IMG/VR virus record: IMGVR_UViG_3300023174_000056
Location: 62,001 to 126,000 of that record
DNA: 64,000 bases
Strand: one strand, 5' to 3'
Origin: a virus
Numbering within the stretch: position 1 is the first letter of the stretch; each line of letters begins with the position of its first letter. Positions 1,245 to 8,285 of the stretch are shown piece after piece. Made by a program: the position numbers and the translations under genes. Below the pieces are notes generated by a model, which saw only the letters and a program-made list of their open reading frames with translations, was not told where the DNA came from and searched no databases.

Positions 1245-3680
1245 TTATATAGCTTGTGGTCTTAATTCTGCATTTGCCAATCTTGCTATTTCTCTTCCGT
1301 TTGCTTGGATGACTAATGGACGATTTGCTAAAGCCATCATTGCTTGATACATTTTATCATCATTATTGCCAGAATTACGACCAGCTTTTGTAAAATCTAC
1401 TAGCATAGCAGTATCATTTTGTGTACCACTTATAAGTTTGCCAGCAGCGGTTTTAATAACTGGTAATCCAGGCGATGAAAGAACGTCCTCTCCTTTTTCA
1501 TCTGGTTTCAATGCTGTAGAAGATTTATTATCTGGAGCCATCTTATCCGTGAGTACTCCTCCAACACCCTTCATAAAATCTTCTGCAATGCCTAGTTTAT
1601 TCAATCCTTTTACTAAAACATCACCAGCACTCCATCCAAAAGCACCTGCAAGACCATTAACTATACTTAAACCAATACCAATTGGTCCTCCAAAAGCTAA
1701 AAGACCATTTAATATAGTATTGGCACCACCTTTTACGGCTATCTCGCCAACAGTTTTTTTAAGACCATCATCTGGCGTTTTCCCACCAGCTGTACCAGTT
1801 TCAATAGCATCCTTGATATCTTTATAAGTGAAAAACACGTCTAAGGCTGGTCCAAGGAATTTTAAAGCAGTTTTCAAGGCACCTTTTGCTGCTGCTTTAG
1901 CACCACCAGCAGCAACTTTGCCTCCAACATCAGCAGTGGCTTCTAGACCAGCTCTTTCTGCACCGCTTGCTAATTTATAAGCTTCTTTTGCGGTTTTTCC
2001 AGACGCACGGGCCTCTTTAAATATTTTGGTACCTTCTTCGCTTAGATTACCGATTGATTTTTTGCCAGCTTCTGCTACTGTTTTTGACCCTGCGGATGCA
2101 GGAACTGGTAAATTTCCTGCGCCTCCTCCCTTAAATATACCACCAATCTTATCCTTTAAAAATCCACCAGCCATATTTGCTGCAACTGCTCCAGCTAGGG
2201 CAGTAATTGTTCCAGCTAGAAAGAGTATCTTTCCTCCCAAAGAATCTAAAGTTTTGTCTAACTTATCATTCATTTGCAAATAAGTGTCAACTGCACCGGC
2301 ACCGCCTACTGCTTCAGTCATTCTAGCAGTAGTTTTACCAGCAGCACGCTCTTCACCAGTTGCTGCTTCTTTAGCTAAATCTCTTACACTTTTTTCTTTC
2401 TTTAAATCTTCCTGTTCTCTAATTGCTTTAGCTAATTTATCTCCTGTCAAATTAGCTAAACCTTTAAATGTTTGCGGATCAATACCAGAAGCTTGTGTGA
2501 CTGCTCTCATTACTTTTGGATCGTTTAAATCTAGACCCGCTCTTTGAATGTTTTCAACGATATATTGAATTTTTTCTGCGCCTTCTAGATTCACCAACTG
2601 CCCAACATCAAAAAGATCCATACCTGCTAAAGCATTCAATCTACCGGCAAACTCTCCTGCACCTTCAAATGTTGATAGCTTTTCCGTTAAGTCAGTTAAT
2701 GTACTAACTTGCGTTCCAGCTAAATGAGCTTGCCTCTCTAGCCCTTCAAATTGTTTTCCAGCGTTAGAACCATAAATTGCTAAACGATTTAAGTTTGAAG
2801 TTAAATCTGAGTTTACTTCTGAAGCTGTTTTTCCTATGGATCTTGCTAAATGCACTAAATTTTCTTCTAAATCTATTGCTGTTTCTTTAGAAACTCCAAG
2901 ATTTGTATTTAAAGTATTAACAACAGTAGAAAACTCCTTTGAAGGAACTCCTAATTGTTCAAGGCTTCTTGCCATTTCGGCCGCTCTTGAACGAAACTCT
3001 AAACTAGTATCATTAAAACCAACTATTGTAGTTGATAGATTACTAAAAACCCTAGCTGCGTCTTCATGTTGAGTTCCTAAATCTGCGGTAGCTTTCTGCA
3101 AGGCTACCATTTCTTCTTTATATTTTCTACCAGCTCCTGTTGTTTTAGCAAAGCTTGCTTGTGCTGCGTCCATTTGCTTTATCATTCCAATTGCCATTTC
3201 AGGAGTGTATAATCCTTTAATATTAAAGTAGGCTTTTCCGGCCTCCATGCCCATATCTTTAATATTACCAGCAATTTTTTTAAATGCTTCAGACGCTTTT
3301 GAAGTATTATTTTCAACTTCTTTTAATTCTTTATTGATTGTTTTTAGGTCTGCAATATATCTTTTTGCTTCTTCGCTATTCTTTTTTCCAGCCTTTATTT
3401 CGGCTTCGAGGGCGTCTTCAAGCGTGCGTTGCATCTGTTTTAATGCACGTTGCTTTTCACTTCTTAATTCTTCTCTTTTTTGCTCGCCAGAATAAATTTC
3501 TTCTATTAATTCTTTTTGAATTTTATAAACTTCATTTTGCTTTTGCAAACTAGCAGGAACATCAGAGGAATCACTATCGTCAGTAGCTGTTCTTCTTGTG
3601 GCTCTTGAAGATGTGCCACCTTTTACAACTTTAAGAAGGTTTTCTAAAGCCGACTCTAATTCTTTTGGATCATATGCCAT
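1245..3680 (-). CDS. Tail tape measure protein
   Basis: 811 residues. The N-terminus is strongly helical and charged, with coiled-coil character between about residues 45 and 140, followed by long alternating helices. Hydrophobic Gly/Ala-rich segments follow near residues 485-510 (LFLAGTITALAGAVAANMAGG) and 660-690 (GGPIGIGLSIVNGLAGAFGW), as in tape measure proteins that reach the host membrane. It lies after the tube and gp26-like chaperone genes, the usual place. T4 gp29 is 590 residues; by the common rule of about 0.15 nm per residue this one suggests a tail near 120 nm. It has its own upstream terminator/promoter-like pair (3727-3754, 3711-3719) and an AGGAAA ribosome site. Confidence 0.85.
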   Translation of the reverse strand: MAYDPKELESALENLLKVVKGGTSSRATRRTATDDSDSSDVPASLQKQNEVYKIQKELIEEIYSGEQKREELRSEKQRALKQMQRTLEDALEAEIKAGKKNSEEAKRYIADLKTINKELKEVENNTSKASEAFKKIAGNIKDMGMEAGKAYFNIKGLYTPEMAIGMIKQMDAAQASFAKTTGAGRKYKEEMVALQKATADLGTQHEDAARVFSNLSTTIVGFNDTSLEFRSRAAEMARSLEQLGVPSKEFSTVVNTLNTNLGVSKETAIDLEENLVHLARSIGKTASEVNSDLTSNLNRLAIYGSNAGKQFEGLERQAHLAGTQVSTLTDLTEKLSTFEGAGEFAGRLNALAGMDLFDVGQLVNLEGAEKIQYIVENIQRAGLDLNDPKVMRAVTQASGIDPQTFKGLANLTGDKLAKAIREQEDLKKEKSVRDLAKEAATGEERAAGKTTARMTEAVGGAGAVDTYLQMNDKLDKTLDSLGGKILFLAGTITALAGAVAANMAGGFLKDKIGGIFKGGGAGNLPVPASAGSKTVAEAGKKSIGNLSEEGTKIFKEARASGKTAKEAYKLASGAERAGLEATADVGGKVAAGGAKAAAKGALKTALKFLGPALDVFFTYKDIKDAIETGTAGGKTPDDGLKKTVGEIAVKGGANTILNGLLAFGGPIGIGLSIVNGLAGAFGWSAGDVLVKGLNKLGIAEDFMKGVGGVLTDKMAPDNKSSTALKPDEKGEDVLSSPGLPVIKTAAGKLISGTQNDTAMLVDFTKAGRNSGNNDDKMYQAMMALANRPLVIQANGREIARLANAELRPQAI

Positions 3681-3756: not shown

Positions 3757-3903
3757 TTATCTGGAAGTATTTGCTTTTTTATTTTCTTCTGCTTCCTCTT
3801 TCTTTAACTTAATAAGTCTTCTGAGCATCCACCGTCTTAGACCTATTGGCATATTATAAGTTTCAACTAAACTCCAGCCGTTATAATACTTAAGAAGAAA
3901 CAT
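3757..3903 (-). CDS. Short frame downstream of gp26-like gene, probably its frameshift extension
   Basis: From its ATG at 3903 this frame codes for 48 residues, with the core YYNGWSLVETYNMPIGLRRW and a Lys/Glu-rich tail. The frame stays open upstream to base 3951, overlapping the end of the gp26-like gene exactly at a run of seven T (3943-3949). Translated from the run, it adds about 61 residues. The ATG has only a GAGG two bases away, a poor start site. Short proteins with a W-x-x-x-E/D-x-x-xMP-x-x-xR pattern follow the gp26-like gene in other myophages and in contractile injection systems. I favour expression as a +1 (or -2) fusion, as for tail assembly chaperones placed before tape measure genes. 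A stand-alone protein is the alternative. Confidence 0.65.
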   Translation of the reverse strand: MFLLKYYNGWSLVETYNMPIGLRRWMLRRLIKLKKEEAEENKKANTSR

Positions 3904-3931
3904 TTCCTCATATATAGATTCAATATATTCT

Positions 3932-4771
3932 TTACTTAGACCAAAAAAAGTTTACGTTAAACGGCACCTCCATGTCCGTTTCGTTTTGGCATACAGTACA
4001 AGTAACCACTGTATTGGTTGTAATATTTGGGAAGCATTCTGCATAAACATTTCTTAAAAACTTGGAGTCTCTAGCTGGCATACTCATTATTGCCTGATAG
4101 ATTATGTTTTCCTCAGAAACTCCATTAATTGAATAAATAAAAGTCTTAGCAGTTTCAATTAATGTATTTTCTTCTAGTTTATGTTTTTTTCTACCTTCTA
4201 GGATTTTTTGAAGTTTTTCTTGTTCATATCCATCTAATGGCTTCACTTCTATTTTCCATTTTGTTACTGGTAGTACAACTTCAACTAATCCATTTTCTAA
4301 TAATCTACAACCTTCTTTTAATTCAGGCTCTTTTATCTTCAAAAGCGTGCTTAAATCTACTTCAGTATCAAAAGAGCTACCACAAGAGGAACATTCCGCT
4401 TTTATTGGATATTCTGGCCCATAACCACTGATTCTTGCTGCTAACAATAGAGCATTTTTGTCTATAACAAGTAAAGATGTTGGGTCTATTCTTTTGTCAA
4501 CCAAAATTGATTGCAAAAGGCGATCCATAACAATACCTTTTTCTAAAAATGATTTATTGTAGAGAATGTCCTCTTCACGGGCAGTCATTTCCTTTATTTC
4601 GGCTGACTCTTTACCGTGAAGAGGATGTTCTGGAGGATAATACGCACCTTTTGATGGTAAATCCACTAATTGCGTTGGTACTACATAATTAAACGGACTT
4701 CTTACTGCTTCTACATCTGAATCTTGCGTGTGTAATTGATTACTTGTCAAGCGGTCTTGATTATTTCTCAT
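3932..4771 (-). CDS. 26: Tail assembly chaperone / baseplate protein, gp26-like (T4_baseplate family)
   Basis: 279 residues. Two Cys pairs are visible, ECSSCGSSF near residue 130 and TCTVCQNET near residue 263, which could bind one zinc. The fold-order and neighbours match the T4 gp26-like family (Pfam T4_baseplate) found between tube and tape measure genes in T4-like phages and contractile injection systems, where it acts in hub or tail assembly. The gene ends FFWSK after reading AAC TTT TTT TGG; the seven-T run there permits a shift into the 3757-3903 frame, giving a product near 338 residues. The ATG follows the tube gene by about 20 bases with a weak AGAG site. Confidence 0.75.
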   Translation of the reverse strand: MRNNQDRLTSNQLHTQDSDVEAVRSPFNYVVPTQLVDLPSKGAYYPPEHPLHGKESAEIKEMTAREEDILYNKSFLEKGIVMDRLLQSILVDKRIDPTSLLVIDKNALLLAARISGYGPEYPIKAECSSCGSSFDTEVDLSTLLKIKEPELKEGCRLLENGLVEVVLPVTKWKIEVKPLDGYEQEKLQKILEGRKKHKLEENTLIETAKTFIYSINGVSEENIIYQAIMSMPARDSKFLRNVYAECFPNITTNTVVTCTVCQNETDMEVPFNVNFFWSK

Positions 4772-4790: not shown

Positions 4791-5381
4791 TTATGATAAG
4801 TTTCCTACTACCCAGTATTTTCTTGTAGGTGAAATTCCGTTAGCTGTGTGGCGTGAGCCTTGGTTTACTGTTGATAATTGTGCCCAGTCATAAGCTAATG
4901 TCATTTTAACTTCAATTAAACCTTCATTTTCATATGAGAGCGAACCACCAAAGTCTGCTGATTTAACGATTGGATTTGTTAATCTCCAAACTTCGATTGG
5001 CTTACCTTGTGCATCAACTTGCTTAATATAAACTTCTCCCAAAGTGTTTGTTGATTTTTTCTTTGAGATTGTTTCCACACCAACACCTTGTGGTGCAGCA
5101 ACTGGTGGGTTATAACCAGATTGGCGTAAGATTGTAGCCAAAATATTTACTGAGTCTGGTTGAACTGGATCTACCAATGTAATATTAATGTCATTCCAAG
5201 TAACGTTACCTGGATATTTATAGGTATGTCCAAAGAACTTGTGTTCTTGTGCGCCAACAGTTGCTACTGGTTTATCGACTGATTTAACCACCCATAAAGG
5301 GATATGGTTTGATAAACCAAATACCCATCTAAACTGTCTCTTTGGTTCTACGCTGCTATCGCTCCAAAATGATCCTGCCAT
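4791..5381 (-). CDS. 19: Tail tube protein (gp19-like)
   Basis: 196 residues. The sequence FRWVFGLSNHIPLWVVKSVDKP, then KFFGHTYKYPGNVTWNDINITLVDP, matches T4-type tail tube subunits (gp19 family). Subunits stack as hexameric rings to form the inner tube under the sheath. Length is near T4 gp19 (163 residues) with modest extension, and the C-terminus carries the usual LAYDWAQL strand. It lies directly downstream of the sheath gene, the standard order, and has a strong GAGG site before ATG. A high-copy protein. Confidence 0.9.
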   Translation of the reverse strand: MAGSFWSDSSVEPKRQFRWVFGLSNHIPLWVVKSVDKPVATVGAQEHKFFGHTYKYPGNVTWNDINITLVDPVQPDSVNILATILRQSGYNPPVAAPQGVGVETISKKKSTNTLGEVYIKQVDAQGKPIEVWRLTNPIVKSADFGGSLSYENEGLIEVKMTLAYDWAQLSTVNQGSRHTANGISPTRKYWVVGNLS

Positions 5382-5435: not shown

Positions 5436-8285
5436 TTAATCGTTGAAAGAAGCACCGCTATTTGTTACAACGAAATCTAGAGCAATAAATTCAATTGCAC
5501 GTGCTGGCTTCAATAGGATCTTGGCATACATGATGTTTCTATCAACTAGTTCTGGAGTTGTTGTTGTTTCGTCAAGAATGACTCTGAAGTCTGTTAATCC
5601 TAATCTTGCTTGAATGCTTGCCAAGAATGGATTAACTTGACCCAAGAATCTTTCCCAAGTTACTTGAACGTCTGGATCAAATAGCACAGTTGAAGCAACA
5701 CGACTAATTTCTTTCTTAACGTAATTCATTAATCTACGAACGTTAATACGGTCAAGAGCGCTTTCAGTTACTTGTAGGGTCTTTTGACCAAAGATAACGA
5801 TACCCTCTGCTGGGAATGAAGCGATTGGGTTAATATTTGTTTCGTATAATAAATCACGTTCTTTTGAATTAAGTTTTTGTGATACTGCTGTAACTGTCAA
5901 ACCGCCAGCGCTATTTTCTGATAGTCCGCCACGGGTGAACCCTGCTGGGGCAAACCATATTTCTGAGAATCTTCTTGTTGTTGCAAAAGTCCCCAAGGCA
6001 ACAACTGATGGAGGCATCCAAACAGTGTTTGTTGAATAATCATCCTTGACTAATACCCAAGGATAGAAAGCGCATCCATATGAGCTATTAATAGTTAAAT
6101 CGTCCTTAACATAGGATACAGCGTCAGCAACGTTTGGTTTACGAGCAGATTCTGCGTCTTTATTTTCTGTGCTTGGTGTGTAATCGCCTTGTAAGTCAAT
6201 GATTGCCAATGAATCTCCACGTGTTTCACATGCTGCAATCATTTTTTTATGAATACTTGTGTTTTTAATTCCTGGGATTGCCAAAGTATTCATTTCAACA
6301 ACTTCTGGATCTGAAACAGCGTCAATGGCAACGTTTAATGAATTAATTGCATAGCTTGTTGTTTCATCGGCTGTTGCATCTAGAACTGCCGCTGAGTTGT
6401 TGAATGGTTCTTTTTCTGTAATGTCTAGACCTTCAAATCCGCCAGCTAATGGCAAGGTGAATTTATTAAAATGAGCTAAGAATGTACCTAGTTCATCGCC
6501 ACCCATATTTGAAGTTACAGAATTTCCAGAAGCTCTATTTCCTGGTGTCCATGAGGCTTCCTTGTATTTACCAGTTTGTGAATTTAAAGAACCAGAAATA
6601 TCATCTAAAGAAAACACAAATGAGTATTGTTTAACTGATTCAGGTACGCCAACTGGTTTAGTTCTTAAGTACTCTGGGATTTCTTTATTAAATAACTTTG
6701 TACCTTCTACTGCTGTCTTCATACCCCAGTAAATATTCTCTGGTCTTGTGATGTAGTTATCTTCAATGCTACTTGTTAGAACTGCTGGCAATTGTGGGAA
6801 TGCAAAGCTTGCTGTCCATTCGGCTGTGCAAGTAGGACCGCTTGAGCTTACTACGCCATAAAATTGAGTTGTTAAGTAGCTTGAACCATCAGATTTTGAT
6901 AAGTTTGTAGCTGCGGCATTTGCAGAAGCTGAAACATTAGCAACTGTCTTATATGTTTCTGGACCGTAGAAACCAAATGGTAGTAAGTCTTGGTCAGTTA
7001 TACCAGCCTCTACATCTGGATCTACTTCTACACGAACATATCTTGACATATTTTCATATGTGCCATATTCTTTAAATCTTCTGTTTATATAATCCCATTC
7101 TGTGTATTTATCGCCAATCTTCTTTGAGATATAATTTGGCGATGAAGGATCAAGAGAAATTTGATCAAATCTTTCTAGCACAATTTGTTGATCATCAGTA
7201 TCTTTAATATCTCTGATTACAACTGCAAAGCTTCCAAATTTAAGGTACTTGCTAGCTGGGACTTTGATGTCTTGGATAGAAATTTTTACACTTTTTTGTA
7301 CTGATTCGTCTTCTGATAAAGTGTGAAACTTGAAAAGTTTCTGTGATGGTGCGCCAACTGTTAAATCTGTGCTTGCAGCCCACTCTACTGGTTGCCCTTT
7401 ATGTTGTGCAAAAATCCAACCACTTTCTGATTTTGCAGCATCTTTTTTGAAATTGCTTGCTTTTTTATCACCTTGAGCTAAACCTAAGATAATGGCTGCT
7501 ACTTCGCCATTATATGATTTAACTGCGTTTTCAAATGTTTCACCCAACCAATAAATCTCTGGTTGTGACGATAGGGCATCATTTACTTTTGAAGGGCTTG
7601 TATTTAATACGTTTCTAATGAATAATTTTGAATCTTCATTAAAGTTTACAATTTTTGAAGGCAATGCGACATTGCTTTTGCTTTTAAAAGTTAGTTTAAA
7701 TTCTTTTGCTTGTAAGTCTGTAGAAGTTGTTTTAACCCAAGTGCCAGCTTTACCGTCTACTGCTGAATTGTCTAAAGCACTTCCTGAAAGACCGACGCTT
7801 CCTTCGTCTACATAAATAATTGCTGCTAATTGTGCAGTACCACTAACTGTTGTACCGCTCACAGGAGCTAGGAACAAACCAAAGGCTCCACCGTTTAAGT
7901 TTTGAGTAACGTTTAAGCTATTTGTTGTAGACCATCCTGCATACCCCAACTCTGAAGCGTCTGGATTTTGATATCCGCCCAAACGAACGAAGGTTAGTGG
8001 ACCTGCATTTTTTAAATATGCTTCTGCTGCATAAGCGCCATAGGTTGGAGCAATTTGATTACCTTCTCTCCATACATCTACATTTTTTGAGCCAGCTACT
8101 GGTTTACCAAATAGTTGTTCAAATTCTAATACTGATTGTACTTTTACTGGACGTAAAATTGGGCCTTTTAGTGAACGACCAACAACAACTGGACCGATTT
8201 CTTCAAATTCTCTTGGTAATTGTGATTGATCAATTTCATTTACGAAAACGCCTGGAGACACGAACTTAAAGCTGTTAACTGACAT
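5436..8285 (-). CDS. 18: Tail sheath protein (gp18-like), enlarged
   Basis: 949 residues against 659 in T4 gp18. The N-terminus VSPGVFVNEIDQSQLPREFEEIGPVVVGRS is the canonical sheath start, with the strand that links neighbouring subunits. The conserved C-terminal domain (about residues 700-949) contains RRLMNYVKKEISRVASTVLFDPDVQVTWERF and ends LKPARAIEFIALDFVV. The extra ~290 residues sit in the middle, probably as surface-exposed insertion domains, as is usual where sheaths differ in length. Strong AAGGAG site. Polymerised sheath contracts to drive the tube through the envelope. Confidence 0.92.
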   Translation of the reverse strand: MSVNSFKFVSPGVFVNEIDQSQLPREFEEIGPVVVGRSLKGPILRPVKVQSVLEFEQLFGKPVAGSKNVDVWREGNQIAPTYGAYAAEAYLKNAGPLTFVRLGGYQNPDASELGYAGWSTTNSLNVTQNLNGGAFGLFLAPVSGTTVSGTAQLAAIIYVDEGSVGLSGSALDNSAVDGKAGTWVKTTSTDLQAKEFKLTFKSKSNVALPSKIVNFNEDSKLFIRNVLNTSPSKVNDALSSQPEIYWLGETFENAVKSYNGEVAAIILGLAQGDKKASNFKKDAAKSESGWIFAQHKGQPVEWAASTDLTVGAPSQKLFKFHTLSEDESVQKSVKISIQDIKVPASKYLKFGSFAVVIRDIKDTDDQQIVLERFDQISLDPSSPNYISKKIGDKYTEWDYINRRFKEYGTYENMSRYVRVEVDPDVEAGITDQDLLPFGFYGPETYKTVANVSASANAAATNLSKSDGSSYLTTQFYGVVSSSGPTCTAEWTASFAFPQLPAVLTSSIEDNYITRPENIYWGMKTAVEGTKLFNKEIPEYLRTKPVGVPESVKQYSFVFSLDDISGSLNSQTGKYKEASWTPGNRASGNSVTSNMGGDELGTFLAHFNKFTLPLAGGFEGLDITEKEPFNNSAAVLDATADETTSYAINSLNVAIDAVSDPEVVEMNTLAIPGIKNTSIHKKMIAACETRGDSLAIIDLQGDYTPSTENKDAESARKPNVADAVSYVKDDLTINSSYGCAFYPWVLVKDDYSTNTVWMPPSVVALGTFATTRRFSEIWFAPAGFTRGGLSENSAGGLTVTAVSQKLNSKERDLLYETNINPIASFPAEGIVIFGQKTLQVTESALDRINVRRLMNYVKKEISRVASTVLFDPDVQVTWERFLGQVNPFLASIQARLGLTDFRVILDETTTTPELVDRNIMYAKILLKPARAIEFIALDFVVTNSGASFND

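Follow-up and report, generated by a model that had tools for sequence, protein, structure and literature searches.

The end of one phage tail gene raises the question of whether a single gene yields two proteins, a short one that ends at its own stop codon and a long one that continues in a second reading frame passing through the same run of seven Ts. The DNA analysed here (64,000 nucleotides, hereafter the window) is part of a 168,144-base IMG/VR virus record, and on its minus strand the genes for tail sheath, tail tube, a gp26-like protein and the tape measure follow one another in this order:

5436..8285, minus strand: tail sheath protein, 949 aa (phrog_23 tail sheath, E 1.6e-65)
4791..5381, minus strand: tail tube protein, 196 aa (phrog_4542 tail tube, E 3.3e-17)
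3932..4771, minus strand: gp26-like gene, short form (TAC-N or 'G' form), 279 aa (PF12322 / phrog_150)
3966..3971, minus strand: Shine-Dalgarno-like GGAGGU, at positions -25 to -20 relative to the P-site codon
3950, minus strand: C preceding the T-run (position -4), where a T would give a -1 heptamer
3941..3949, minus strand: putative slip site TTT TTT TGG, with P-site UUU at 3944-3946 and skipped U at 3943
3757..3951, minus strand: +1-frame extension (putative TAC 'T' part), FFGLSKEY...GWSLVETYNMPIGLRRW..., giving a predicted fused product of 337 aa
3731..3754, minus strand: intrinsic terminator directly after the extension, a 9-bp stem with a T tail
1245..3680, minus strand: tape measure protein, 811 aa (phrog_167 tail length tape measure, E 1.1e-12)

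The 3' end of the gp26-like gene reads GTA AAC TTT TTT TGG TCT AAG TAA, with the T-run at 3943-3949 and the UGG that follows, rather than a stop, as the A-site codon. The +1 frame opens after a TAA (3952-3954), ends at the stop 3757-3759 and encodes TFFGLSKEYIESIYEEMFLLKYYNGWSLVETYNMPIGLRRWMLRRLIKLKKEEAEENKKANTSR. An earlier, sequence-only reading had described this gene end, both frames and the terminator correctly in sequence and coordinates; it had counted a single ATG in the second frame, which has three (residues 17, 34 and 41 counted from FFG), a slip harmless to its interpretation.

Its gp26-like assignment was borne out by a Pfam score well above the curated cut-off (PF12322, T4_baseplate; 36.5 versus 24.5 bits) and by PHROG 150 (E 6.5e-13), and the 279-aa protein carries zinc-ribbon cysteines. 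The gene lies between tail tube and tape measure, the tail assembly chaperone arrangement that had been proposed; its location and dual-frame layout mark it as a tail assembly chaperone gene. T4 gp26 and gp51 are listed among hub assembly chaperones (PMC3004832). AlphaFold modelled the short form with a pLDDT of 90.6 (92.1 for the N-terminal domain). A Foldseek search of the PDB with the whole protein gave no significant match; the top three chains for the N-terminal domain were 2ob9 (HK97 tail assembly chaperone), 3klu (which we take to be B. subtilis YqbN, a prophage tail-chaperone protein) and 3fgx, each individually weak (Foldseek E 1.4-4.5; VIA Z 5.4, 5.3 and 6.4, respectively).

We propose that a programmed +1 frameshift at the T-run extends the gp26-like chaperone of this large, contractile-tailed phage, and on the sequence evidence below we assign this reading a probability of about 0.87. 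Most ribosomes would stop at TAA 3932-3934 and release the 279-residue short form. A minority would stall while UUU (3944-3946) holds the peptidyl-tRNA-Phe and UGG occupies the A site; a forward slip by one base would place the tRNA on the overlapping UUU (3943-3945), with GGU CUA AGU read next to yield a long form carrying the conserved extension. The +1 fusion has 337 residues, close to the ~338 first predicted. If lambda gpG/gpGT is a guide, the tape measure protein might be coated by many copies of the short form and few of the long one, with the extension recruiting tail tube subunits. Dual-frame conservation, selection on the extension, slip-site rules and gene position are read from the sequences, whereas the ribosomal nature of the slippage, its efficiency and the binding roles are inferences.

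Conservation and coding of the extension

Homologues were drawn from annotated phages, IMG/VR and bacterial MAG contigs, and about 300 loci were read, ~215 of which retain this extension in the +1 frame, allowing for contig ends. Every sufficiently long locus of the window's clade and of the immuto-like clade, again allowing for contig ends, has an open +1 frame that reaches 52 codons or more beyond the stop, while the other frame is usually short there; the opening is therefore not a matter of chance. Outside the slip site, the genes contain just 3 runs of seven or more Ts in 80 kb. The two clades share an extension domain, FFGL..Y....Y......GGWSF.EAYNLP..LR.WF..RL. An SP-15-like clade has an equivalent dual-frame layout with a divergent extension, and the +1 ORF is kept across the stop in nearly all of its members; in one locus of this survey (L207) it runs only 42 codons past the stop, and three distant members found alongside (L226-L228) are of a -1 type discussed below.

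Upstream of the slip site, nucleotide variability is concentrated at codon position 3 in the gene frame, and downstream it shifts to position 3 in the +1 frame. In the part of the extension that codes in one frame only, the median dN/dS over 143 pairs was 0.108, as compared to 1.44 and 2.19 in the other two frames, and the window against its closest relative (L010) gave 0.126. By these sequence comparisons, the extension is under purifying selection.

Runs of seven Ts are error-prone in sequencing and assembly, and such an error could in principle create an overlapping frame of this kind. The +1 layout recurs, however, in isolate genomes (Microcystis phage Mel-JY01, RM378, a Flavobacterium immuto phage and Bacillus phage SP-15), and independent contigs that show it number well over 100, including variants that are not homopolymers, which leaves an artefact with a negligible probability.

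The extension could also be an independent gene, translated by reinitiation within the second frame. In the window, the ATG at residue 17 has a GAGG close upstream, and in the -1 branch an ATG often follows the stop directly. Against this, the conserved extension residues FFGL, Y8, Y13 and E14 precede the residue-17 ATG, and the slip site is itself under nucleotide-level selection (see below). Of the 175 loci with the +1 layout, 101 lack any ATG as far as extension codon 20, and 34 lack ATG, GTG and TTG alike. The pattern that the sequence-only reading had named as fatal to a frameshift, homologues carrying the short protein as a separate gene with a strong start, was thus not found in the +1 clades, and we regard separate initiation there as quite unlikely.

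Three further observations concern the extension and its surroundings. The records of immuto, SP-15 and Atu_ph07 (L002, L004 and L007) that were examined annotate the extension in truncated form (~36-40 aa, with the start placed inside it), which constitutes an annotation problem. The window's extension matches DUF6760 (PF20546) weakly (E 0.11), a match that could connect it to other contractile systems. Finally, some relatives lie in sequences labelled as bacterial: a gp26-like gene with identical match scores occurs near both ends (L105 and L106) of a 306-kb contig labelled Methylococcaceae (NHDW01000006.1), possibly a phage contig with repeated ends, and a close relative (L102) lies within the 2.85-Mb MAG chromosome of a candidate division WOR-3 bacterium (CP070664.1), as a prophage or a misassembly.

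Rules of the slip site

The 175 unique loci nearest to the window were selected by a search for (T/C)TT_T close to the gene end, and this core is accordingly present in 175/175; the only locus of the same two clades without it (L003) reads TTT CTA TTC, where UUU_C would serve. The E-, P- and A-site codons are TTT TTT TGG in 149 loci, TTT CTT TGG in 18, TTC TTT TGG in 3, TTT TTT TTC and TTT CTT TAC in 2 each, and TTT TTT TAC in one, so that the P site holds only UUU or CUU, followed by U.

These codons bear on the direction of the shift, which had been left at +1 or, as in phage Mu, -2. Both arrive in the same frame, but re-pairing in the P site at +1, of the YUU_U type known from prfB, is possible at all 175 sites, while the tandem re-pairing needed at -2 is possible at 0/175. 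The +1 alternative thus stands and the -2 alternative is disfavoured, to the point of being very improbable.

The expectation that homologues would keep both the T-run and the overlapping frame held for the frame; the run itself is broken in 23/175 loci (TTTCTTT in 20, TTCTTTT in 3), with the slippery core intact and the same extension retained. Most sites of the SP-15-like group are UUU_C, commonly UUU_CGU, again with a +1 P-site option. UUU_CGU, the core of the influenza PA-X shift site, is seen in many SP-15-like relatives (L195-L212), and a sub-clade (L213, L216-L218 and L222) has AAT CCC AGT instead, where the sequence suggests CCC_A as the likely shift codon, with a +1 P-site option. Exact shift codons are assigned for loci other than LIS04 (L006) and L215. 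According to a review, UUU_Y is especially +1-prone in bacteria, CUU_U serves in RF2 genes, and influenza has the cassette UUU_CGU (PMC5009743).

The broken runs also bear on transcriptional slippage, in which RNA polymerase would drop one U (or add two) on the T-run and the altered mRNA would encode the fusion, as in a Roseiflexus IS and T. thermophilus dnaX. An unbroken T7 in most loci, and a terminator-like GC-rich hairpin just 5' of the run in many loci of the window's clade, would suit such slippage. However, realignment on TTTCTTT requires an rC:dA mismatch, described as inviable (PMC5009743), and the hairpins remain in window-clade loci with TTTCTTT. High rates are described for runs of 9, whereas the window has 7 and lacks the hairpin; the stem-loop directly 5' of the tract, typical of the Roseiflexus IS, is thus absent in the window (p 0.71 against a synonymous null) and the tract is broken in 23/175 relatives. 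Because TTTCTTT and TTCTTTT sites keep the extension and UUU_CGU relatives have no long run, we consider transcriptional slippage unlikely, and retain ribosomal +1 slippage as the preferred reading.

Codon choice around the site was compared in 102 loci with the usage of the same genes. At -6, GAC was used in 59/60 cases (p 3e-28), at -24 GAG in 68/69 Glu codons (p 1e-30) and at -18 CCG in 61/101 (p 2e-27), and the two Phe codons were TTT in 99/102 and 98/98; a T at position -4 was found in 0/152 loci with an unbroken T7 and in 3/23 loci whose run is interrupted (Fisher p 0.002), all these p values overstating the evidence because the loci are related by descent, though the direction is still clear. 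The simplest reading of the sequences is that T is avoided before the run since it would form the -1 heptamer U UUU UUU.

GGAGGT was found in 62% of the 102 relatives, as compared to 16% expected from codon usage. This Shine-Dalgarno-like element, ~17 nt 5' of the T-run in the window and its relatives, is thus favoured beyond codon usage, and in the window it lies further upstream than known +1 or -1 stimulators.

A hairpin upstream of the site was considered as a universal stimulator and rejected. In the window's wider clade its mean energy is -5.5 kcal/mol, versus -2.3 kcal/mol for synonymous shuffles, but it is weaker in the immuto-like clade, and neither the window nor its closest relative shows one beyond the synonymous null; it therefore has no part in explaining the window. 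To our knowledge, a refolding RNA hairpin is known as a +1 stimulator only from reporter constructs. Since such a hairpin beside the shift site stimulates +1 shifting on 70S ribosomes (PMC6321510), the upstream hairpin may matter in the relatives that have it.

Relatives with the extension in the -1 frame

P-SSM2, S-PM2, HTVC008M, phiM12, KVP40, phiW-14 and Atu_ph07 each have one PF12322 gene, with U UUU UUY just 5' of its stop and the extension in the -1 frame; across ~90 T4-like relatives, a homologous extension in the -1 frame lies behind U UUU UUY at the same place as the +1 site. Eighty further viral contigs of cyanophage type (L248-L327) have the heptamer U UUU UUC without exception (80/80), and in 78 of them the open -1 frame spans 40 codons or more, the other two being shorter and reaching the contig end. 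GGAGG or GAGGG lies 9-10 nt upstream of the heptamer in 72/80, a spacing described as stimulating -1 shifts (PMC6321510). An ATG stands 2 nt past the stop in 68/80, so that in this branch independent initiation, and with it a free gp51, is possible as well.

The P-SSM2 and KVP40 records name the -1-frame extension gp51, and cyanophage gp51 is described as missing the first ~200 residues of T4 gp51 (Sullivan et al. 2010, PMC3037559). Some of the genes annotated as free gp51 in cyanophage-type phages may thus be extensions reached by frameshifting. In T4, two proteins, gp26 and gp51, match PF12322 over its full length, and its gp26 gene ends GAG TTC TTT GAG, with the heptamer absent. The short 'gp51' of the -1 branch aligns with the window-type extension (hhalign 97%), and the -1-branch profile matches T4 gp51 (E 1.9e-9), which carries the extension. 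A direct hhalign comparison of the T4 gp51 C-terminus with the window-type extension gave 0.1% and no alignment, and the link between them therefore runs via the cyanophage-type sequences.

On a tree of 78 PF12322 rows, in which long branches (T4, RM378 and Atu_ph07) make details unsure, the decoding types require 5 changes, where the minimum is 4 and shuffled labels require 35. Tentatively, and at somewhat less than even odds, we suggest that one ancient tail-chaperone family switched its decoding, with +1 shifting at YUU_Y in the majority of clades, a -1 shift at U_UUU_UUY, stimulated by a Shine-Dalgarno motif, among T4-like phages, and a gene duplication in T4. The base before the T-run would separate the two directions, and a refolding upstream hairpin would be a natural +1 stimulator in part of the +1 clade.

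Comparison with known systems

The results suggest a route by which phages related to T4 that have a single gp26-like gene could obtain both chaperone forms. They add ~200 natural candidate +1 shift sites, in which evolution reveals such rules as P-site re-pairing and the avoidance of T ahead of the run, and since one gene exists in a +1 and a -1 version, single-base changes in reporters can test directly what sets the direction of the shift. The +1 decoding, the rules of its site and the contrast between +1 and -1 appear to be new.

Tail assembly chaperones of T4-like phages were reportedly treated by Vladimirov, Gautam & Davidson in 2022 (Virology 566:9-15), and the genes concerned would be 26 and 51. 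Passages in papers citing that work mention that some T4-like phages carry a short copy and a fused long copy (PMC10274946) and refer to polyT signals in T4-like chaperone genes (PMC12846349). T4 gp26 and gp51 belong to the same protein family as the window's gene (PF12322); T4 has two separate genes, one short and one fused-long, whereas the phage of the window appears to make both forms from one gene via a +1 shift. The cyanophage branch differs from the window in using a -1 heptamer.

Lambda gpG/gpGT likewise precede the tape measure gene and comprise a short and a frameshift-extended form; the lambda shift is -1, the window's gp26-like protein is longer and has zinc-ribbon cysteines, and the likeness seen is one of position and forms. 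In Pseudomonas phage Adele, a conserved polyT frameshift signal lies at the end of a myovirus chaperone gene (PMC12846349); the shift there is -1 at an invariant GTTTTT, and the likeness to the window is in layout. The autoregulatory +1 shift of prfB (RF2) uses YUU_U with P-site re-pairing, as proposed for the window, and CUU_U itself occurs in 20/175 relatives; unlike prfB-type sites, the window has UGG in the A site and its Shine-Dalgarno-like GGAGGU at -25 to -20. The +1 shift of influenza PA-X (UCC UUU CGU) occurs in an unrelated gene, and its UUU_CGU recurs in many SP-15-like relatives, whereas the window has UUU_UGG.
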